From a virus, in IMG/VR virus record IMGVR_UViG_3300042868_008033, positions 23,254 to 87,253 of that record: DNA of 64,000 nucleotides, one strand, 5' to 3'. Below the pieces are notes generated by a model. That model made no database searches. It was given only the letters and a program-made list of their open reading frames with translations, and was not told the origin of the DNA. Shown piece after piece: positions 449 to 61,862 of this stretch; positions within the stretch are counted from its first letter, which is position 1; each line of letters starts with the position of its first letter. A program made the translations under genes and the position numbers.

Positions 449-1027
449 CTAGTTGTTAAACAAAATCGACTTAGATATATCTATGATATAAATTAGTCTC
501 CTTTTATCAGTCTTATTATATGCACTATGCAATTCAGCATTATCAAATGCAAATAAGTCGGACCAATCCTGCTTTATACCATTAACTTCCAGTGCAACAT
601 CACCTTCTGGTATGATTAATGGTATATGAATTCTTACTGTGTTGCGTGAACGATTCTCAATGTCTACATGACTTTTAATAACACCACCTGATTCTAGTAC
701 ACTGTAACCACTACAACCAATGTGAGCAATATACTGTTGTGTTAGCGTTGATGCGGTTGGAAATATGTTGCGTATTCTTGGTTGTAAAAAGAAATTATGT
801 TCAACCTTTTGTTCAGGTAATGCATAACGTAGTCCTTCAACCTTCCAATCATTCTTTTCTTTTTCATCCAAAACAGCATGTGGGTTTGATGCAGCATATG
901 ATACACCGCCTTTAAATGTGGTGTGAAAGTCTTTATGATATTCTAAAAATTCATCACGTAATTTTGGTGCCAATTCCATCAATTCATCAGCGATTTTAAT
1001 TTCATTCCTACACCAAATTGACTGCAT
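449..1027 (-). CDS. Aspartyl/asparaginyl beta-hydroxylase-like Fe(II)/2OG oxygenase
   Basis: About 192 aa with the iron-binding triad of the AspH family: H121-x-D123 (SHVDIEN), a distal H168 (ELHSAYN) and a 2-oxoglutarate-binding arginine (KRRLIYIID, about 177). Such enzymes hydroxylate Asp or Asn side chains using iron, O2 and 2-oxoglutarate. GGAGG at 1032-1036 lies 4 nt before the second of two adjacent ATGs, which I take as the start; the first ATG is only 1 nt from it. The gene follows the tmRNA gene and may share its promoter. It is one of five 2OG-type proteins within 6 kb. The substrate is unknown. Confidence 0.8.
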   Translation of the reverse strand: MQSIWCRNEIKIADELMELAPKLRDEFLEYHKDFHTTFKGGVSYAASNPHAVLDEKEKNDWKVEGLRYALPEQKVEHNFFLQPRIRNIFPTASTLTQQYIAHIGCSGYSVLESGGVIKSHVDIENRSRNTVRIHIPLIIPEGDVALEVNGIKQDWSDLFAFDNAELHSAYNKTDKRRLIYIIDISKSILFNN

Positions 1028-1040
1028 CATACCTCCATTA

Positions 1041-1344
1041 AGTGGTTGGTTATTCTGTTACGAGGAAACCAACCGAAACCCTAGTCAGCGTTTAGGCTGC
1101 CAATGCGAACTGTGAGTCGTTTGCGTTTACTTTGATTTAGTTTTAACATCTTCTCTGATGAGCTGTCCACTTCTGTACTATTTGCCCTGTCGAAACTATG
1201 CAGGCCCATCAGAAGCATACTAGCACATAGACTTAACTATGAATTGTGGGTTTCAAGACCACTAATATGCTTATGGTGGACCTGGGGGGATTCGCACCCC
1301 CGTCCAGAACACATTTCTAGTTGCTTCATACAACCATAACATTA
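1041..1344 (-). ncRNA. ssrA: Circularly permuted two-piece tmRNA (ssrA)
   Basis: Read on the minus strand, the acceptor half comes first: T-arm GGGGG/CCCCC with loop TGCGAAT, acceptor strand CAGGTCC, then ACCA ending at 1274. A 66-nt intervening loop (1208-1273) follows, closed by an 11-bp stem (1262-1272 with 1213-1223, one G-U pair). Then comes the 5' half: GGGCCTG (1207-1201), which pairs fully with CAGGTCC, and the D-loop-like TTTCGACAGGG. The tag reading frame is at 1124-1092: GCA resume codon, tag ANDSQFALAA, stop TAA. An 8-bp hairpin (1044-1051 with 1067-1074) follows. tmRNA rescues stalled ribosomes and tags the unfinished peptide for ClpXP. The outer ends are approximate. Confidence 0.93.
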
Positions 1345-1350
1345 TTTATT

Positions 1351-1379
1351 ATTGTAACACAACCGCAATATCATGTCAA
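1351..1379 (-). promoter_or_regulatory. Sigma70-type promoter of the tmRNA gene
   Basis: TTGACA (1374-1379), a 17-nt spacer, and TACAAT (1351-1356) on the minus strand. The predicted start is near 1344. The -35 box overlaps the TGA stop of the exonuclease gene. An AATAAATA stretch at 1343-1350 also resembles the T4-like late motif, so late transcription is possible. Confidence 0.8.
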
Positions 1380-2035
1380 CTGTTTTTATGGTAATAATCA
1401 ATTGCTTTAACCAGGCCTTCAATATGGTCTTGTGTTTTTTCTTTGAAAATCATTGGTTGTTCGTTATCCACGGCCATAATGATTATCAAATCATCAATAG
1501 GTGTACCAACTAATTCTTCATACATCAATGCATATGCAGTACATTGCCAAAAATAATCTAAAATATCTTCACGCTTTTTAATCTTCTTTGATGTTTTAAA
1601 ATCAATGACTGATAACTTACCTTCATACTCACCAATGCAATCTACACGACCTGCTAATCCTAGTTGTGCAGACCACAGTCCGACCTCTTGGTAGTGTATG
1701 TTATTGATTTTGTTTAGATGTGGTTTGATTGATATGAACATCTCTTTGGCATCAGGCATAACAGTGCCTGGTGGTTTTGTTTCATTGTTCAAATAATATT
1801 CACACATGGTATGCATATTGGTACCACGGGATGTAGCATGTTTGGAGATTTTGTTTGCAACTTCTTCACCAACTCTACGGCGCCATGCCATGATGGCCTC
1901 TTTTTTCTGAGCACCCACCACTGTGGTCACCGATGGTAACTTTTTACCATCAGGCGTGACATAATATCTTTTCCCGTCAGGAAAAGTTTGAGATTCAATT
2001 TTTGGAATCTCTTTTGGTGGGCAATAAATGAACAT
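1376..2035 (-). CDS. PD-(D/E)XK exonuclease (RecB/Cas4/MGME1-like)
   Basis: 219 aa. The PD-(D/E)XK core is visible: an early E/H region (SRGTNMHTMCEYY), then GRVDCIGEYEGKLSVIDFK with Asp and the D-F-K motif, and a following QCTAYALMYEE helix. This matches single-strand DNA exonucleases of the Cas4/MGME1 group that are common in T4-like environmental phages. A role in recombination or degradation of host DNA is inference. Its ATG overlaps the stop of the upstream radical SAM gene by one base (TAATG), so the two are translationally coupled. Confidence 0.8.
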   Translation of the reverse strand: MFIYCPPKEIPKIESQTFPDGKRYYVTPDGKKLPSVTTVVGAQKKEAIMAWRRRVGEEVANKISKHATSRGTNMHTMCEYYLNNETKPPGTVMPDAKEMFISIKPHLNKINNIHYQEVGLWSAQLGLAGRVDCIGEYEGKLSVIDFKTSKKIKKREDILDYFWQCTAYALMYEELVGTPIDDLIIIMAVDNEQPMIFKEKTQDHIEGLVKAIDYYHKNS

Positions 2036-54240: not shown

Positions 54241-54714
54241 TTACATATTTGGTTGTTTGCGTTTGACGAATGACATTACTGGATTTCTTTTCTTAGAAAC
54301 ACCTGGTTCTCCACCTGCGCCGCCCGACCCAGCAATGTTTCCACCACCAACAGTATTGGTTGGCGCAGCTGCCATACCTTCTTCATTTATTGCAGTGACA
54401 TGAGTTTTAGGTAAACTTAATATGGGATGTGTTTTGGTTACTGGTTTACCATTTTTCAAATGCACATACATTTTACTAGAACCATCAACTTTTCTTAATG
54501 TGGAACCTTTTTTAACAACATGCCCATTACCAAAATCTAAATCTTGATTTGCAACATGTGTATGGTGTTGTTTTTCATTTTCACTATAAGTATGGTTAAT
54601 ATTTTCAGACACCTTCTCACAACTTCCTGGAGAGAATGCTTTTTTACCTCGAACAGGTTTGTATCCAGTCCAGCATCTATCTTTTTCTGTAATATATTCT
54701 TGAAATGTTTTCAT
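54241..54714 (-). CDS. Capsid-targeting-like protein with Cys-Gly repeat motif
   Basis: 157 aa from the ATG overlapping the upstream stop (TAATG). It begins MKTFQEYITEKD, close to the T4 internal-protein targeting peptide (MKTYQEFIAEA). Next is CWTGYKPVRGKKAFSPGSCE, a motif repeated in phage proteins, and a His/Gly-rich middle. I infer an internal head protein cut after TE by the prohead protease. Confidence 0.62.
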   Translation of the reverse strand: MKTFQEYITEKDRCWTGYKPVRGKKAFSPGSCEKVSENINHTYSENEKQHHTHVANQDLDFGNGHVVKKGSTLRKVDGSSKMYVHLKNGKPVTKTHPILSLPKTHVTAINEEGMAAAPTNTVGGGNIAGSGGAGGEPGVSKKRNPVMSFVKRKQPNM

Positions 54715-55454
54715 TAGCAATTCCATTTACGTAAGGATTTGTTGATGCGAGAATCTGGATCTTTAGCAGTTGCCGCTGAAGTTAATCTTTTCTTCATACC
54801 AGACATTCTAGCACAGAATGATTTGCGGCGATTCGCTGCAGTTGAACCTGCTTTTAATTTTGATGGTTCTGTTGTCACAGCTGTTTTTAGTTTGGAACCT
54901 GGATTCTCTCTACGATAAGAATCAACACCTTTTTGATTCAAACCACCAGATTCTCTTTTGCCTTCTTTGCGTTGCCATGCAGCAGTTTCTTCTAAGTCAA
55001 CTTCTTCATTTTTACTGGACATATAACCAGCAGCTGTTTCAATATAGTCTGCAGCTAATGTTACTTTAGATTGAACCCAAGCAGGTATCTGCATATTTGG
55101 ATCCTTAACGACACCACGCATCATGTTGATGGAACGTTCCATGTGATCCAGTTGATTCATAATCATACTACCTTCATCATCCATTTCTTTACCCATGGCG
55201 ATAGCAATATGGTTTTCTTCTAGTTCTTCCTCAGAAAGTTTATTTACTTTAGCAACATAATTAGTTGTATCTTTTCGTAACGTTGATCCAGGTTTTCTCA
55301 GAACACCTTTTTCTTTTTCTTCACGTTTTTTGGCTTTTGCAATCTTATCCAATTTATCTTGTGTCATTTTGCCCCAAGGACCATGACCTTCCTTAACAAC
55401 TTCTTCTGGAGTTGGTTCTTTTACTTCGTTAATAAATTCTTGAAATTTTTTCAT
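54714..55454 (-). CDS. Capsid-targeting-like protein (DUF6321-like end)
   Basis: 246 aa. It starts MKKFQEFINEVKE, a capsid-targeting-like peptide. A C-terminal basic block, FCARMSGMKKRLTSAATAKD, is typical of a T4-like phage domain (DUF6321-type, hedged). Middle region helical (MNQLDHMERSINMMRGVV). Inferred to be packaged in the head. Confidence 0.6.
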   Translation of the reverse strand: MKKFQEFINEVKEPTPEEVVKEGHGPWGKMTQDKLDKIAKAKKREEKEKGVLRKPGSTLRKDTTNYVAKVNKLSEEELEENHIAIAMGKEMDDEGSMIMNQLDHMERSINMMRGVVKDPNMQIPAWVQSKVTLAADYIETAAGYMSSKNEEVDLEETAAWQRKEGKRESGGLNQKGVDSYRRENPGSKLKTAVTTEPSKLKAGSTAANRRKSFCARMSGMKKRLTSAATAKDPDSRINKSLRKWNC

Positions 55455-55837
55455 ATGTTTCTTAATATCTCTGCGACATTCATATCTAGTGGTAAATCGG
55501 ATGATGATATAGTTTTTCCATTAATACCATAAACAAAATCAGGCATGATATCTAGATAATCTAAAAAAGTCTTTAGAATATCATAATCACGTTCATCAGT
55601 CTTATAGAACAATATTCTTGCCGTTGCTTCTGGACCAAAAACATTATTCAATAAAATGATATGGTTTATAATTAATCGTTCTTTGAGGGATTTTGTGACC
55701 TTATATCTACGAAATAACCTTTTCAGGTATTTTGTTCTTTTAATATCTCCCTCAAATTCCGACATAATGCAATGTGGTGATGTATAGCATTTTGCAGCAT
55801 ACATCATAAAATTATCTTCATTCAATTCATCGAACAT
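55451..55837 (-). CDS. Conserved T4-like phage protein (DUF7207-type)
   Basis: 128 aa: FDELNEDNFMMYAAKCYTSP, then YLKRLFRRYKVTKSLKERLI, HIILLNNVFGPEATARILFY and a C-terminal DLPLDMNVAEILRNI. The family occurs next to head genes in many T4-like phages. Function unknown. No clear ribosome site: the ATG follows a hairpin and TATAAT. Confidence 0.65.
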   Translation of the reverse strand: MFDELNEDNFMMYAAKCYTSPHCIMSEFEGDIKRTKYLKRLFRRYKVTKSLKERLIINHIILLNNVFGPEATARILFYKTDERDYDILKTFLDYLDIMPDFVYGINGKTISSSDLPLDMNVAEILRNI

Positions 55838-55845
55838 ATTATAGA

Positions 55846-55861
55846 GGGGCCGAAGCCCCTT
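55846..55861 (-). terminator. Hairpin with UUCG tetraloop after a virion-protein gene
   Basis: Stem GGGGC/GCCCC (extended by A-T) with loop TTCG, a very stable C(UUCG)G tetraloop on the minus-strand RNA, only 3 nt after the stop of the 55865-56734 gene. No clear U-run follows on that strand, so termination may be partial. On the plus strand a TTTTATT does follow. Confidence 0.6.
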
Positions 55862-55864
55862 TTA

Positions 55865-56734
55865 TTAAGCGTCAGGTAAAGAAATATCGTCTGAACCATC
55901 ACCTATAACTTCGGAAATGGCAACTAACGTTTCGTATTGAACACGACCTGCACGGCCACCGGAACCAACTGTTTTTATGTTCCAACCAATGTGTGTTGCG
56001 TGTTCTGCACCACTAACACTTTGACTTAAACCACGACTTGCAATTGCTGTTGCACGTACACCATCAACAATCGTAAAGAATTGTCCTGTTTCACCGGTAG
56101 ATGTGATATCAATAACAACGTTGTTTGCAGCATTTGCAGCAGTTGTTGCCAATGAGAAACGGTTTGCATCAACGGGTACAACATAATATGTGTTTGCATT
56201 TGTTAAACCAGCAATGTTAGCAGTACCACCCCAATTGAAAACAAGAGCAGCACTATTTGCTTGACCGTGAGCAGTATACATTACTACGTTATTAGCAGCA
56301 ATTACTGAAGCTGTTGGAACAGTTAATACTGGAACTTGAATTGTAACTGCTGGAGTTGATGTGTAACCAACACCTGTGTTTGCAACTGTAATATTACTCA
56401 CCAGGCCAGCAGCAATAGTAGCGGTTGCAGTTGCACTATATGCACCAGCACTAGCTACAATAGAAACACCAGGTGCTTCAACATATCCAGCACCTTGATT
56501 TGACAATGAGATATCCACTACATTATCACCACCAGCAGTGGTCTCTGTAGCATCTACCATGAACAATCCAACAGTCATACCTTGTGTATATGCCTGGAAT
56601 TGTGTATTACCATATAACAGTGCAACGTTTGCTGCTGTTGGTGCGGATGCAACTGGCGCATTTGTTGTTTGTACTGTCTCAACAGCCCAATATGGTGCAT
56701 TAGCTGCGTTATCGTTATTTCCCCAAGATGACAT
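55865..56734 (-). CDS. Beta-rich virion (head decoration or fibre) protein
   Basis: 289 aa, rich in A, V, T, N and G with repeated beta-type units (VDISLSNQGAGYVEAPGVSI; GYTSTPAVTIQV), a feature of phage adhesion and capsid-surface proteins. The start SSWGNNDNAANAPYWAVETV is typical of a T4-like environmental phage structural protein. Strong ribosome site (AAAAGGAG) and a late motif GATAAATA 33 nt upstream indicate high late expression. Confidence 0.72.
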   Translation of the reverse strand: MSSWGNNDNAANAPYWAVETVQTTNAPVASAPTAANVALLYGNTQFQAYTQGMTVGLFMVDATETTAGGDNVVDISLSNQGAGYVEAPGVSIVASAGAYSATATATIAAGLVSNITVANTGVGYTSTPAVTIQVPVLTVPTASVIAANNVVMYTAHGQANSAALVFNWGGTANIAGLTNANTYYVVPVDANRFSLATTAANAANNVVIDITSTGETGQFFTIVDGVRATAIASRGLSQSVSGAEHATHIGWNIKTVGSGGRAGRVQYETLVAISEVIGDGSDDISLPDA

Positions 56735-56767
56735 GTTATTCTCCTTTTAACCGTGGGTTATATTTAC

Positions 56768-56775
56768 TATTTATC
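56768..56775 (-). promoter_or_regulatory. Late promoter motif GATAAATA
   Basis: GATAAATA on the minus strand, matching the T4-like late consensus NATAAATA. It overlaps the stop of the upstream gene and lies 33 nt before the virion-protein ATG. Confidence 0.6.
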
Positions 56776-58030
56776 TTTTTCCAGAAACTGGTTTACGCAT
56801 CTTCAACATAGGGTCGATTTCGATGGTATCTCTCTTTTCACCAGTCAAGGTGGTACCGCCTGTTAATACCGCTGCGGCCTGTGGTTCTTCTAAATCAGTA
56901 CTTACACTTTGCATTTTTGGTTTTTTACCATAAGTTGCAACAGACTTGTCTTCCTTTTCATGGTCATAAATTTCCTCTTTCATTCCCTTCCTTTTATAGA
57001 TGGATTTAATGATTCGAGCAGACTTAGACATTTGAATCAACTTTTTATTCTTTGGTTGTTCAACATCATCGGGACTATTTGCACCGTCATTAGGCATTGA
57101 TGATGCGGCCATCGGGTCTTGTGTATTTTCTTTATTTAAAGATTTTTTAATCGAAGCAGTTGTCTTGTCAATTTGTTTGCCTGTGGCCTTCATGTGATTC
57201 AACAGACGGTCGTTCGATTTTTTATATTGGCCTTTTGAAGCCAAATCATCAGAAGACTTCATCGCTTTATCTTTATAACTTTGCAATGTTTCTGAACTGA
57301 TTTCAGAAATGACATTCGTATCATCTGAGTGTTCAACAGAATCACCAGTCCATCTTTTGCCACTTGTATAATCTTTGCTTGCGCCAGACATTGTTTTGTT
57401 TCGTAAAGATTCTGCATCTTCAGGATGACGACTCAAGTGTTTTTCTTTGGCTTTCATGAAAATACCATGAGCTCTTGTTGACTTAGAAGCCATTTCTTTT
57501 TTCTTTGAAACGTCTGGTTCTGAACGAGATTTATCATACAGTTCATGACTTCTTTTTAAAAGTTTATTGGCTCTTTCACCATATTCAGGAAAAGATTCAC
57601 CTAAAGATTCAGCTTCTTCTTTAATAATTTTACCATACTGATTCATGGTCAAAGTTCCCTTGCCACGAATTGAAATCAGTCTTTCTACCATTTTATGTAG
57701 AAGTACATCCGATTTTAATTCTTCACGAGCAAACTCTAATACACGAATCAACAAAGGTATATCAAAGATAATTGTATCTTTTCTATCTACAGCTTCTGAC
57801 ATGTGGTCTCTTTTCCATTTGATGAATTGTCCCATCTTGGAATGTGCAACCTTTTGGTCTTTAGAAACATGTTTTGGATTGATACCTCTAGAAGTCAAAT
57901 ATTGATCCAAAGCAGCATCTTCCGCAATATTAGCTTTTGCGGACCATGGATCCCAAGGATTAGTTCCAAAAGAAGGCTTTTCTGCACCCCCCCTTTTAAC
58001 TATAGATTTTAATGTTTGTGCTTTGCTCAT
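56771..58030 (-). CDS. Conserved head-associated protein of unknown function
   Basis: 419 aa. Central conserved block FDIPLLIRVLEFAREELKSD, then LHKMVERLISIRGKGTLTM, known from T4-like phages. The rest is long, charged and low in complexity (KRSHELYDKSRSEPDVSKKK). Many lysines suggest DNA or scaffold contact. Part of the late block; function unknown. Confidence 0.68.
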   Translation of the reverse strand: MSKAQTLKSIVKRGGAEKPSFGTNPWDPWSAKANIAEDAALDQYLTSRGINPKHVSKDQKVAHSKMGQFIKWKRDHMSEAVDRKDTIIFDIPLLIRVLEFAREELKSDVLLHKMVERLISIRGKGTLTMNQYGKIIKEEAESLGESFPEYGERANKLLKRSHELYDKSRSEPDVSKKKEMASKSTRAHGIFMKAKEKHLSRHPEDAESLRNKTMSGASKDYTSGKRWTGDSVEHSDDTNVISEISSETLQSYKDKAMKSSDDLASKGQYKKSNDRLLNHMKATGKQIDKTTASIKKSLNKENTQDPMAASSMPNDGANSPDDVEQPKNKKLIQMSKSARIIKSIYKRKGMKEEIYDHEKEDKSVATYGKKPKMQSVSTDLEEPQAAAVLTGGTTLTGEKRDTIEIDPMLKMRKPVSGKR

Positions 58031-58039
58031 TATTGTGCC

Positions 58040-58189
58040 TTATTTGTTCATCATTTCTTTTTGAACTCTATTTAAAGATTTTTTGGCCAAGTACCTTGCA
58101 TGGTTCAGTGGTTTTAAATCGTGTGTATCATTAATACTAGAGACAAAAGGTCCGTCTTCTTGACTGGTTGGTCCCTTTGCCTCATTTAC
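58040..58189 (-). other. -1 frame extension reached by a dnaX-type slippery site
   Basis: 49 codons with no start codon of their own, open from GTA right after the heptamer A-AAA-AAG and ending in TAA at 58040-58042. The product would read VNEAKGPTSQEDGPFVSSIN, then helical LKPLNHARYLAKKSLNRVQK. AGGA lies 9 nt before the heptamer, as in dnaX. A weak stem (CAAAGG with CCTTTTG) is possible downstream. Confidence 0.65.
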
Positions 58190-58671
58190 TTTTTTTCGTC
58201 TGTTTCCTGTTCTGGTTTATCTTTTTGTTTAGAACCACCGTAACGAGAACCTTGTTTGACACCTGAACCGCCGTTTGGTTGTGGTTCTGGTTTCTTTTTC
58301 CAGTCAAATGCATTTTCTTTGAATTGCTTCAATGTTTTCTGTGTTGAAACTTCAACTTCTTCTTTTTTTGGTTCTGGTTTTTTACCAGTAACTGGTGCAC
58401 CAGCTCTTTTCTGTAGTGCTTTAAGTTGGTCTTCATCTGAACCACCAGTCAAAGCTTTGAAAGCTTTCTTGGCAATATCTTTAAGACCTTCTTCAACGGT
58501 TTCTTCTTCTTTGACGGTTTTCTTTTCGCCACGAAGAATTTTGAAATCATGTGCATCAACTTTATTGTTCTTGTTTTTATCAATTAAATGTTGATTGCCT
58601 TTTAGTGCCTCTTGTTGTAAAATTTCTTTTACCGCATCAGCAAGTGCATCGTTTTTTCTTAAGTTTATCAT
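58186..58671 (-). CDS. EF-hand-like small protein, zero frame of a shifted gene
   Basis: 161 aa from ATG 58671 behind AAAGGAG. Residues 31-42 (DKNKNNKVDAHD) match the 12-residue calcium loop of EF-hand and dockerin repeats. A Lys/Glu-rich middle and a low-complexity Gly/Pro/Lys tail follow. The frame ends in GAA AAA AAG TAA. A -1 slip would extend it by 49 residues to about 210. Likely head-associated by position. Confidence 0.68.
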   Translation of the reverse strand: MINLRKNDALADAVKEILQQEALKGNQHLIDKNKNNKVDAHDFKILRGEKKTVKEEETVEEGLKDIAKKAFKALTGGSDEDQLKALQKRAGAPVTGKKPEPKKEEVEVSTQKTLKQFKENAFDWKKKPEPQPNGGSGVKQGSRYGGSKQKDKPEQETDEKK

Positions 58672-58672
58672 A

Positions 58673-58885
58673 TTAATCTCCTTTAATGTTTTTTGCAGCT
58701 GCAACCATAGTCTCACCTTTAGCTTCTGCTGCTCCGCCGTGGCCGAACTGTTTTTCTTTTTGTGCTTGGTCACCATACTCTTTTGCTTTGTACATCAAGT
58801 GAGCCTTTTGGCGTTTGATTTCTTGAGCATCATAATGTGATGTTTCTGGTGTAGATTCTCTTACAAACTCTGTAAATTTTTTCAT
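58673..58885 (-). CDS. Small capsid-targeting-like protein
   Basis: 70 aa starting MKKFTEFVRESTPE, a targeting-like peptide, then charged helices (HYDAQEIKRQKAHLMYKAKE) and KNIKGD. Coupled by ATGA to the upstream adenylyltransferase-kinase gene. Probably a packaged head protein; no enzyme motif. Confidence 0.62.
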   Translation of the reverse strand: MKKFTEFVRESTPETSHYDAQEIKRQKAHLMYKAKEYGDQAQKEKQFGHGGAAEAKGETMVAAAKNIKGD

Positions 58886-60663
58886 TTCTTTTTCTTCTTT
58901 ATTGAACTTGAACCAAATTTATCTCTTGGATTTTCCATTGGTTCTTTATTTGTTGCACCGCCCAATACACCGTAAACACCCATTTCAGAATCGGCAGGAT
59001 CATTATGCGACTCTCTAAAGTTTTTGAAATCTACATGTTCTCTATATGTTACATCGCCTAGACCAGACATAGGGTATACTGTTCCCTGTTGGCGTGTATC
59101 AAATTCTGGACCAACTGTTGTTATGTTTCTCATACGTTGATTAACAGTTGGTGAATCTCTGAAACGATTACGTTTTACTTTTTCTTTGTCCTTGGAGAAG
59201 TTGTCTTCTTTGGGGATTGGACTGACTTTGAGGCTGGGGCCTTCTTCACTGTAGGTTTTGAAGGTGTAACTTCCTCGCTTTTTGTTTCCATCCCACTTGA
59301 TGTTGTCGGCGTTAATGTCTCCTGCACGATTATCTGGGAGTTCACTTCCTGGACCTTCGGCTCTTGGACCGGTACCGGTGTTGAGAGTTGGACTTCCACT
59401 GGTGCGCTTGGTTTTGTAACTTTCAAAAAATCTAGAATTTTTCTTAACATTTTCATTTTCCTTAAATAATGATGTGATACTAATTTTACCACGACTTTCC
59501 AACCAAGAGAACGCAATTTCATTGTAATTTTTGTCCTCGATGAACCTATTTATTTTTCCGTAAGTGTCAGTAATGTCTTCTTGAATTTCTTCGAAGGTTG
59601 AACTATTATTGAAATCTATAAAATTGGAAAAATTCTGACGATATGCTTCTTTTGAAGTTTGTGCTAATTGCCACTTATCATATCTAATTGATTCTGAAAT
59701 TGACTTGGTCAACTTCTCATTACGTTCTTTACTGGCTTCATTGGTTGTATCAACAAATACCATAACAGTTTCATAACCAAATTCTTCTAGTTCTTCTCTA
59801 ATAGTAATTATTCTAGTGTGGTCATCAGCAGGTCCATTAATAATTAGTGGACCACGGTTACGAATAGCTTCTCTACGATAGTCGGTTGTTTTTTCGGACA
59901 GTTTTTGTTTGTCCATCAATAAGTCAAATGCTTGCACTGAATTCAATTCTACTGCTTTATTTTCAGCAATTGCTTCACGTATAATAATGTCTTTACCTGA
60001 ACCTGGTCCACCAGTCACAAAGATTGCTTTAAATAGTCCACGATTGAATTCTTCATTCAATCCCATACCTTTACGAACATCACGAAACAATGCTCTAGCA
60101 TGATTGTCTGGAACATGTGCAGGAACACCTTGTCTGAACGAATTGAAATCACCACTCTTTGCATGGTCACGCATCTTGGAAGCAGACATACCTTCTGCAC
60201 CTTCTGCATCGGGGTCACGTTGACCAGCAGATTTAACTTCTATCTTTTTAAAGTTGAATAGTTTACCTGGACCTTCTCCGTTATACTGATTTAATTTTTG
60301 TTCATATTCTGGAATACGGTCTGAACCTGCAACCATTATCAAGTGGTCATGGCCTGCTTGATGTAGTGCAGCTGCATGTTGTAAAAATGTTGGTTTCTCT
60401 TTACTTGAACCGGTAATGTTTGTGTCAGGGAAGAATCTCTTTGCGTGTTTGATTTTACTTGCAATGTCTAATGGATTCTTCTTTGTGTCCATAGAATGTG
60501 ACACAATAATGTGGTGTGGTGCTTTGTAGTCTTTTGCAAGTTGTTTCACTCTATCAACCACTTTAGCGTGGCCAATAGTTGGAGGATTCATTCGACCAAA
60601 CGCCATCACCACAGGTGTGTGGGTCTGTGCATCTTCTTGTAACTTTTCTAAAAACTTTTTCAT
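58882..60663 (-). CDS. Adenylyltransferase-kinase fusion with capsid-targeting-like start
   Basis: 593 aa. After MKKFLEKLQED (targeting-like), residues 16-170 form a nucleotidyltransferase: FGRMNPPTIGHAKV (T-x-G-H active site) and GMSASKMRDH (I/S-x-T/S-x2-R-type). Residues about 213-380 hold a P-loop kinase (VTGGPGSGKD) with MVFVDTTNEA. The C-terminal 200 residues are charged, with GSPTLNTGTGPRAEGPG. Nicotinamide-nucleotide adenylyltransferase-like in the first part. It may rebuild NAD or repair ends; not proven. Confidence 0.75.
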   Translation of the reverse strand: MKKFLEKLQEDAQTHTPVVMAFGRMNPPTIGHAKVVDRVKQLAKDYKAPHHIIVSHSMDTKKNPLDIASKIKHAKRFFPDTNITGSSKEKPTFLQHAAALHQAGHDHLIMVAGSDRIPEYEQKLNQYNGEGPGKLFNFKKIEVKSAGQRDPDAEGAEGMSASKMRDHAKSGDFNSFRQGVPAHVPDNHARALFRDVRKGMGLNEEFNRGLFKAIFVTGGPGSGKDIIIREAIAENKAVELNSVQAFDLLMDKQKLSEKTTDYRREAIRNRGPLIINGPADDHTRIITIREELEEFGYETVMVFVDTTNEASKERNEKLTKSISESIRYDKWQLAQTSKEAYRQNFSNFIDFNNSSTFEEIQEDITDTYGKINRFIEDKNYNEIAFSWLESRGKISITSLFKENENVKKNSRFFESYKTKRTSGSPTLNTGTGPRAEGPGSELPDNRAGDINADNIKWDGNKKRGSYTFKTYSEEGPSLKVSPIPKEDNFSKDKEKVKRNRFRDSPTVNQRMRNITTVGPEFDTRQQGTVYPMSGLGDVTYREHVDFKNFRESHNDPADSEMGVYGVLGGATNKEPMENPRDKFGSSSIKKKKK

Positions 60664-61862
60664 ATGTTTCTTATTCCAGCAAAATTTCTACGAGAGAATT
60701 CCGCACGGTTAACTAACTTATCAGATTCTTTACCGTGATGAAAAACATATCCTTCAGGATTCGCAGATTCTCCGCCGTGTGTGTGTTGAAATTCTTGGTG
60801 TTGATTCATAACACCAATAAGTGTATCTTTAGCCTTCTGTAACTCACCATGCATTTTGAAAAGATTGTTGTAATGTTTTTTATTACGTTCAACTTTACCC
60901 AATTCATCTTTTAAAGCTGATTGTTTGACCTTCTTGTTCTTTTCGACTTTAAGTTTGTCGATTGCTTTATTTTTGTTTGTTTCCAGCCAAGACTTAAAGT
61001 TTTTATGGTTAGATTCTTCACCTGTACGTACAGTGTGATTAATATAAGTTTCTAATGAACCACCAACACCATGGTGTTCACTAGTACCAGCATACATGTC
61101 ACCGCCATGTGTATCATGTACTGCTTGAGCTGCAGTAATATGTTTAGTGAATTTCTTTTGTTCTTCTGGACTGAAATGCACCTTTGATGTGTCCATTCTT
61201 GGATCAACAGAGAATACATCAGAGTGTTTATTGAAGTTTTCGTGGTCAACTTCATGTGATGCATTTAGACTTGCAGCATCTTTGCCTTGGTACGATAAGT
61301 GTGTTACAACACCAATTTTTGCCTTCTTAACTCCACCTTCGTGTGTTCCGTGTGCAGTATATGTTAGGCCAGAAGGATTAGGATGAAACGATGTACCACC
61401 ACCCTTTTCAGTTTTCTTATCTTCCTTGTCTGTACCAAACATCATATCACCTTGATATACACCTTTTTTAGGTGCAATCTTGGGTAAATGCGTTAGTGCA
61501 TCTTTTAACTTTGCGGCCAGACCAGGTGCGTGACCATGATTCATATCTACATCTTTTGGTGTGTAGTTAATCTTTGGTGTCTTATTGAAAGCGGACTTTG
61601 ATGCAACAAAGAATTTACCAGTCTTTGGATGATGACCATAAACAAGTGCTGGTGAACCATCATATTTTGTGGTTAGTTCGGATGATTTATTACCAGCCTT
61701 AATGTGTTCTGCTGCAGCTGACAATGATTTGATGGCATGTGCCGCACCTTTTTCACCATTTTGTAGAGGACGGTCTTCCACATGCGTCAAATGTTTAATC
61801 TGACGGCTGGCGCCTTCTTCAGGATCCTCTTGCTCTGTTAAAAAAGTTTTGAATGATAACAT
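60660..61862 (-). CDS. Ligase-like nucleotidyltransferase with capsid-targeting-like start (DUF6267-type)
   Basis: 400 aa. It begins MLSFKTFLTEQED. Residue K66 lies in TTKYDGSPALVYG, the K-x-D-G motif I of RNA/DNA ligases and capping enzymes. GVYQGDMMF resembles motif III, PEGYVFHHG resembles motif IV (E-G), and KLVNRAEF lies where motif V would be. The central part is His-rich. It is in the DUF6267-like group in my judgement. Activity untested. Confidence 0.68.
   Translation of the reverse strand: MLSFKTFLTEQEDPEEGASRQIKHLTHVEDRPLQNGEKGAAHAIKSLSAAAEHIKAGNKSSELTTKYDGSPALVYGHHPKTGKFFVASKSAFNKTPKINYTPKDVDMNHGHAPGLAAKLKDALTHLPKIAPKKGVYQGDMMFGTDKEDKKTEKGGGTSFHPNPSGLTYTAHGTHEGGVKKAKIGVVTHLSYQGKDAASLNASHEVDHENFNKHSDVFSVDPRMDTSKVHFSPEEQKKFTKHITAAQAVHDTHGGDMYAGTSEHHGVGGSLETYINHTVRTGEESNHKNFKSWLETNKNKAIDKLKVEKNKKVKQSALKDELGKVERNKKHYNNLFKMHGELQKAKDTLIGVMNQHQEFQHTHGGESANPEGYVFHHGKESDKLVNRAEFSRRNFAGIRNI

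Follow-up and report, generated by a model that had tools for sequence, protein, structure and literature searches.

A probable programmed −1 frameshift at a dnaX-type A_AAA_AAG site in a gene family of uncultured T4-type phages

Introduction

Phage T7 gene 10 is a structural gene with a −1 frameshift; in it, as in phage A2 and in the tail assembly chaperones G/GT of lambda, a shift close to the gene's end means that part of the product is extended at its C-terminus. For A2, the shifted gene is that of the major head protein, according to a work cited in PMC10885494. The heptamer A_AAA_AAG is the shift site of dnaX (PMC5009743), which in E. coli is accompanied by an upstream Shine-Dalgarno-like sequence and a downstream stem-loop and yields two products that share their N-terminus. 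Some dnaX genes have a reversed layout, reported for Chlorobium phaeobacteroides, in which a stop in the zero frame comes after the site and a shift is needed for the long product (PMC5009743). Thermus thermophilus dnaX makes use of polymerase slippage at nine A's (PMC1088944, PMC5009743). The same A_AAA_AAG, with Shine-Dalgarno-like and structural stimulators, is also found in the IS3 family (PMC4066793).

Here, we analyse a gene that ends on this heptamer and belongs to freshwater T4-type phages, all of them uncultured. Similar to E. coli dnaX and the IS3-family sites, it combines A_AAA_AAG with an upstream Shine-Dalgarno-like sequence and a possible downstream stem-loop, and it would give two products with a common N-terminus; similar to reversed dnaX, its zero-frame stop comes after the site and the long product would need the shift. 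Unlike dnaX, however, it is an unrelated T4-type phage gene with an extension of 49 codons, and its Shine-Dalgarno-like match has four bases only (AGGA). Nor is it a transposase gene as in the IS3 family. The addition of a C-terminal part near the end of the gene is shared with T7 gene 10, A2 and lambda G/GT, but the gene is neither a major capsid nor a tail-chaperone gene; a search for homology to tail assembly chaperones of the lambda G/GT type gave no PHROG match and no chaperone family in Pfam.

Results

The window analysed here, a stretch of 64 kb, comes from an 87 kb IMG/VR record of an uncultured virus. The features discussed below all lie on its minus strand:

58673..58885, minus strand: upstream gene, 70 aa, with the capsid-targeting-like N-terminus MKKFTEFVRE
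58671..58186, minus strand: zero-frame gene of 161 codons (short product, 161 aa), ending GAC GAA AAA AAG TAA
58205..58208, minus strand: Shine-Dalgarno-like AGGA, 9 nt 5' of the heptamer
58196-58190, minus strand: A7 run, containing the first letters of the heptamer
58195-58189, minus strand: slippery heptamer A_AAA_AAG, invariant in all A7 variants
58186..58188, minus strand: zero-frame stop TAA, directly 3' of the heptamer and kept in every A7 and A10 variant
58189..58040, minus strand: −1-frame extension of 49 codons, from GTA at 58189 to TAA at 58042-58040
58140..58183, minus strand: predicted stem-loop of 11 bp (58183-58173 with 58150-58140), beginning 5 nt past the heptamer
56771..58030, minus strand: downstream gene, 419 aa, no function assigned, used as the anchor for finding relatives

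An earlier note on this DNA, made from the letters alone, had described a gene that ends GAA AAA AAG TAA and is followed by 49 start-less codons in −1, with AGGA 9 nt before the heptamer; on the minus strand this holds, with no early start codon in the extension and AGGA at 58208-58205, exactly 9 nt from the heptamer. The heptamer is in phase with the zero frame, as at dnaX. Reading in −1 starts GTA AAT GAG, the 49 codons encode VNEAKGPTSQEDGPFVSSINDTHDLKPLNHARYLAKKSLNRVQKEMMNK, and the full shift product has 210 aa; a tryptic peptide that would come from the extension is, for example, GPTSQEDGPFVSSINDTHDLKPLNHAR. Upstream of the site the −1 frame is open for 9 codons only, without ATG, GTG or TTG. 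In one A7 subgroup (L036, L043, L049 and similar loci) a TGA stands in −1 just before the run (TGA CGA AAA AAA GTA), which leaves the 9 nt CGAAAAAAA as the only place where the −1 frame can be entered and therefore pins the shift to the A run.

How unusual is this arrangement? An open −1 frame of 49 codons after the stop is not rare by itself, as it follows 25 of 85 ORFs in the window, because genes overlap. Within ORFs of at least 100 aa, the 64 kb hold four in-phase A_AAA_AAG sites, among which 58195-58189 alone abuts its own stop and alone opens more than 17 codons in −1. The case for a frameshift rests on the heptamer, the absent start and conservation.

To find relatives, IMG/VR was scanned with the downstream gene, with two alignments and with the virtual protein of 210 aa. 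The scans, with much redundancy between them, gave a set of 290 loci, in which variants were counted as distinct extension sequences. The earlier note had asked whether related phages keep the heptamer or have a fused frame, and both situations occur. The heptamer is kept in 22 distinct A7 variants, which are related to each other and hence not independent observations, and in 5 A10 variants; all read AAAAAAG-TAA with the extension in −1. In distant relatives, the same tail is fused in one frame. The junction of L053 reads GAT AAA AAA AAA GTA ACT GAA, and L053 and L190-L194 share AAA AAA AAA GTA ACT GA(A/G) preceded by T; that of L057 reads GAT AAA AAG GTA AAT GAA, and L052, L055, L104 and L203 have a junction without a run. 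In L201, L258 and L276 the tail forms a gene by itself, whose ATG overlaps the stop by four bases (ATGA) and whose product begins MKSFKEF or MKTFKEF, which is capsid-targeting-like. With fused as well as separate homologues, the tail counts as a genuine protein module that can be joined or expressed by several routes, the shift being one of them. Built on 87 columns, a tree of the downstream domain has too little resolution to tell whether the shifted form arose once.

Beyond IMG/VR, comparison with 50,697 phage records at the DNA and protein level gave no relative of the frameshifted gene, and a fused homologue gave weak module matches only, to cyanophages P-TIM68, Sf-CH5 and Sf-CH8. No relatives were found in 84,980 bacterial and archaeal genomes scanned with the downstream domain.

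Two elements next to the heptamer could act on ribosomes. Its spacing of 9 nt places AGGA within the 6-17 nt upstream that characterise dnaX-type sites. It is present in 15/15 A7 contexts of the form examined, in 1/20 fused contexts and in 0/1 A10 contexts; in a shorter subgroup of the A7 clade the spacing is 6 nt, not 9, and L039 is an exception with AGGCC in its place. In A7 contexts AGGA is always built by CAG-GA or AAG-GA, that is, by the non-preferred codons of the window's genes (CAA:CAG 111:27; AAA:AAG 293:101). Of the 20 contexts in fused relatives, which encode the same peptide, 19 have CAA or CAT/CAC; the single A10 context has CAA.

The second element is the predicted stem-loop, whose arms pair GAGGCAAARGG with CCTTTTGTCTC. 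In the window it folds at -20.0 kcal/mol (z -4.3 vs shuffles). The stem is present in all A7 variants, with folds of about -19 to -29 kcal/mol and, in L008, where one pair is broken, of -15.6 kcal/mol; z ranges from -3.6 to -6.7 across four A7 variants, L036 having -6.7. Over 20 variants 99.5% of the stem cells are paired, without covariation, a test that is uninformative here because 9 of the 11 pairs never vary. When the same peptide was recoded, 196 of 2000 window sequences (~10%) folded equally or more strongly, and some of the stem may therefore simply follow from the peptide encoded; for L036 the figure was 2 of 2000, and it is the only A7 variant of those tried that is clearly beyond recoding. 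GAG, which makes up 14% of the codons for Glu, and GTC, which makes up 9% of those for Val, are invariant in 22/22 variants, and their third bases pair in the stem. This stem is not retained in register in A10 relatives. Judged from these patterns, AGGA and the stem-loop are likely but unproven stimulators of the shift.

Transcriptional slippage, by which the polymerase adds one A or loses two and part of the mRNA encodes the long protein in one frame, would make a ribosomal shift unnecessary. It may apply to the A10 relatives, in which AGGA and this stem are missing. PMC3711429 lists A runs longer than seven as slippage sites, and long runs concentrate at this locus: of 26 runs of at least nine A's in 1.26 Mb of locus DNA, 20 are at the junction, counts that are not fully dereplicated. 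In addition, both other frames contain nearby stops in six fused loci with A9, as in Thermus dnaX. This likeness concerns L053 (3160), L190-L194 (3094) and L271 (3269), which have a single frame through A9 with TAA and TGA in both other frames directly after the run, so that any slip would yield a short product like that of the window; it is a likeness of layout only, and the window itself has A7. A run of about nine or more A's is absent from the window's gene, occurring as A9 or A10 in relatives only, and A7 falls short of the nine A's that are the usual threshold in many bacteria, where selection against polymerase slippage is evident at that length (PMC1088944). Moreover, every variant has a G after the run, giving AAG, which is relevant to ribosomes but not to polymerase, and AGGA and the stem-loop belong to the A7 clade, not the A10 clade. 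With slippage counter-selected at nine A's, and A7 found together with AGGA and the stem, the ribosome is favoured, and we regard slippage as an unlikely explanation of the window's gene.

Translation of the extension as a separate gene, by re-initiation or from a non-standard start near the stop, has its model in L201, L258 and L276, where the tail does have its own ATG in an ATGA overlap. In the A7 clade, however, ATG, GTG and TTG are absent from every variant between the upstream −1 stop and the end of extension codon 24. An ATG does come after the stop (TAAATG), but it is out of frame, and 10 of 22 variants have TAACTG. The first 17 codons are the best conserved part of the extension. With an early in-frame start lacking from the A7 clade, we reject re-initiation as very improbable.

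Could the A7 run be an assembly or sequencing error in one continuous gene, as the earlier note had cautioned? Homopolymers are error-prone, and fused relatives exist. Yet the redundant loci scored comprise 171 with A7 and 17 with A10, from many separate metagenome assemblies, and none in the IMG/VR locus set has A6 or A8 at a split junction; because A7 and A10 differ by three, the −1 phase is retained. The fused lineages, moreover, have other junctions, either A9 after T or no run. The same phase across relatives excludes an error for practical purposes, and the caution can be set aside.

Within the extension, the 22 A7 variants have a pN/pS of 0.21 in the −1 frame vs 5.2 and 1.6 in the other two, and variable columns at codon positions 1/2/3 number 13/10/32 of 48; this pattern is one of purifying selection in the −1 frame only, as estimated from the aligned variants. 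A relic reading, in which a frameshift cut the gene and left an unexpressed tail, would suit the fused forms that are common among more distant relatives, but has next to no likelihood given this selection, the third-position variation and the retention of the extension in lineages whose tails share only about 49-60% identity, and we reject it.

What would the protein do? The zero-frame gene has no match in PHROG, and contains one weak EF-hand-like loop below the Pfam cut-off. Such loops (DKNKNNKVDxxDF) lie at window positions 58505-58600 on the minus strand and also in L055 and L036, and occur as repeats in some relatives; among the proteins tested, only L055, a fused homologue, has an EF-hand over the Pfam cut-off. 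The predicted structure of a fused homologue's C-terminus is mostly of low confidence (mean pLDDT 63) except for a terminal helix, which follows a low-confidence stretch and has block means of 74-90.

The earlier note had placed the gene in a head block. No match to gp20 or gp23 was found in the window's record; related records carry T4-type gp20 and gp23, and in the 180 kb genome of L029 these are at 96-102 kb and the frameshifted gene is near 140-147 kb. There the gene thus lies outside the gp20-gp23 cluster, at a distance of ~40 kb, and the head block is only partly supported. What does speak for it is a set of five genes between 54241 and 61862 on the minus strand with an MKxFxEFxxE-like motif at or near their start (MKTFQEYITE, MKKFQEFINE, MKKFTEFVRE, MKKFLEKLQE and MLSFKTFLTE). 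We take these N-termini to resemble T4 capsid-targeting sequences letter by letter. The role of the 10-residue capsid-targeting sequences of T4 internal proteins is described in PMC9026906. From the motifs, 54241-61862 is a possible block of capsid-internal protein genes and, because its neighbours bear such N-termini, the short and long products of the frameshifted gene might, with low confidence, be capsid-internal proteins too. Starts of this kind on the five neighbours and on the separate-gene tail are likenesses to the T4 internal head proteins IPI-IPIII; unlike these, the frameshifted gene does not start with an MKxxxEFxxE-type sequence but with MINLRKNDALADAVKEILQQE.

Two further observations concern the phage. 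A 593-aa upstream gene ends, at window positions 58880-58945 on the minus strand, with SSSIKKKKK and an A-rich tail directly before the ATG of the next gene. At 1019-1393 (minus strand) the window carries a phage-encoded tmRNA, permuted and of the betaproteobacterial type (tag ANDSQFALAA; Rfam RF01850, 123 bits), and the same type occurs in 4 of 6 related records of 111-180 kb. This type suggests that the host of the window's phage is a betaproteobacterium.

Discussion

We consider it highly probable, from the comparison of these sequences, that the gene undergoes a programmed −1 shift with two products, ribosomal in the A7 clade and possibly transcriptional in A10 relatives. Most ribosomes would halt at the TAA past A_AAA_AAG and release the 161-aa protein, and some, shifted by −1 on the heptamer in the manner of bacterial dnaX, would go on to make the protein of 210 aa. 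The tail that the long product gains at its C-terminus is conserved and would consist of a short linker and a helix. For the A7 clade, we regard ribosomes as the most likely agent of the shift: AGGA would pair with 16S rRNA, and the stem-loop 5 nt downstream would help. A10 relatives have neither AGGA nor that stem, and in them slippage of RNA polymerase, or simply the greater length of the run, may bring about the shift. Both products would be of use to the virion, perhaps as internal head proteins.

The earlier note had supposed that a share of ribosomes makes a longer protein of about 210 aa by a −1 shift. The frame does give 210 aa and is conserved and under selection; the share of ribosomes we infer. 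Comparison of sequences supplies the site and its conservation, the −1 selection on the tail and the fused and separate homologues, from which we infer the occurrence and rate of shifting, the role of AGGA and the stem, and the service of both products in the virion. The frameshift could also be a tolerated one, not one retained for making two products.

The mechanism is already known from dnaX-type sites; the family itself, with its range of expression modes, appears to be undescribed. Novelty lies in this family, in the phage group that carries it and in the set of states seen at a single junction. As a tentative reading, one family, perhaps of a capsid-internal class, may reach a short and a long product in several ways: A7, A10, A9, fusion and split genes. 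In that series, A7 would be ribosomal with stimulators and A10 perhaps a matter of polymerase slippage, and the single-frame A9 with flanking stops would be the mirror image, in which the short form arises by slippage.

For T4-type myoviruses, the locus would be a well-supported case of programmed frameshifting, as judged from sequence. A title cited in PMC10885494 states that tail chaperone genes of T4-type myoviruses suggest a mechanism other than frameshifting. A gene caller confined to one frame at a time would overlook the tail of 49 residues, and the gene would be listed as an orphan of 161 aa.

Finally, if the tentative reading of several expression modes in one family is true, uncultured T4-type phages would offer a series, formed in nature, in which the evolution of recoding can be followed in parallel to dnaX. 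As the family contains A7, A9 and A10 forms, fused forms without a run and split forms, it is suited to asking why a shift is used and not a fusion, and it would also let one ask when polymerase slippage replaces ribosomal shifting.
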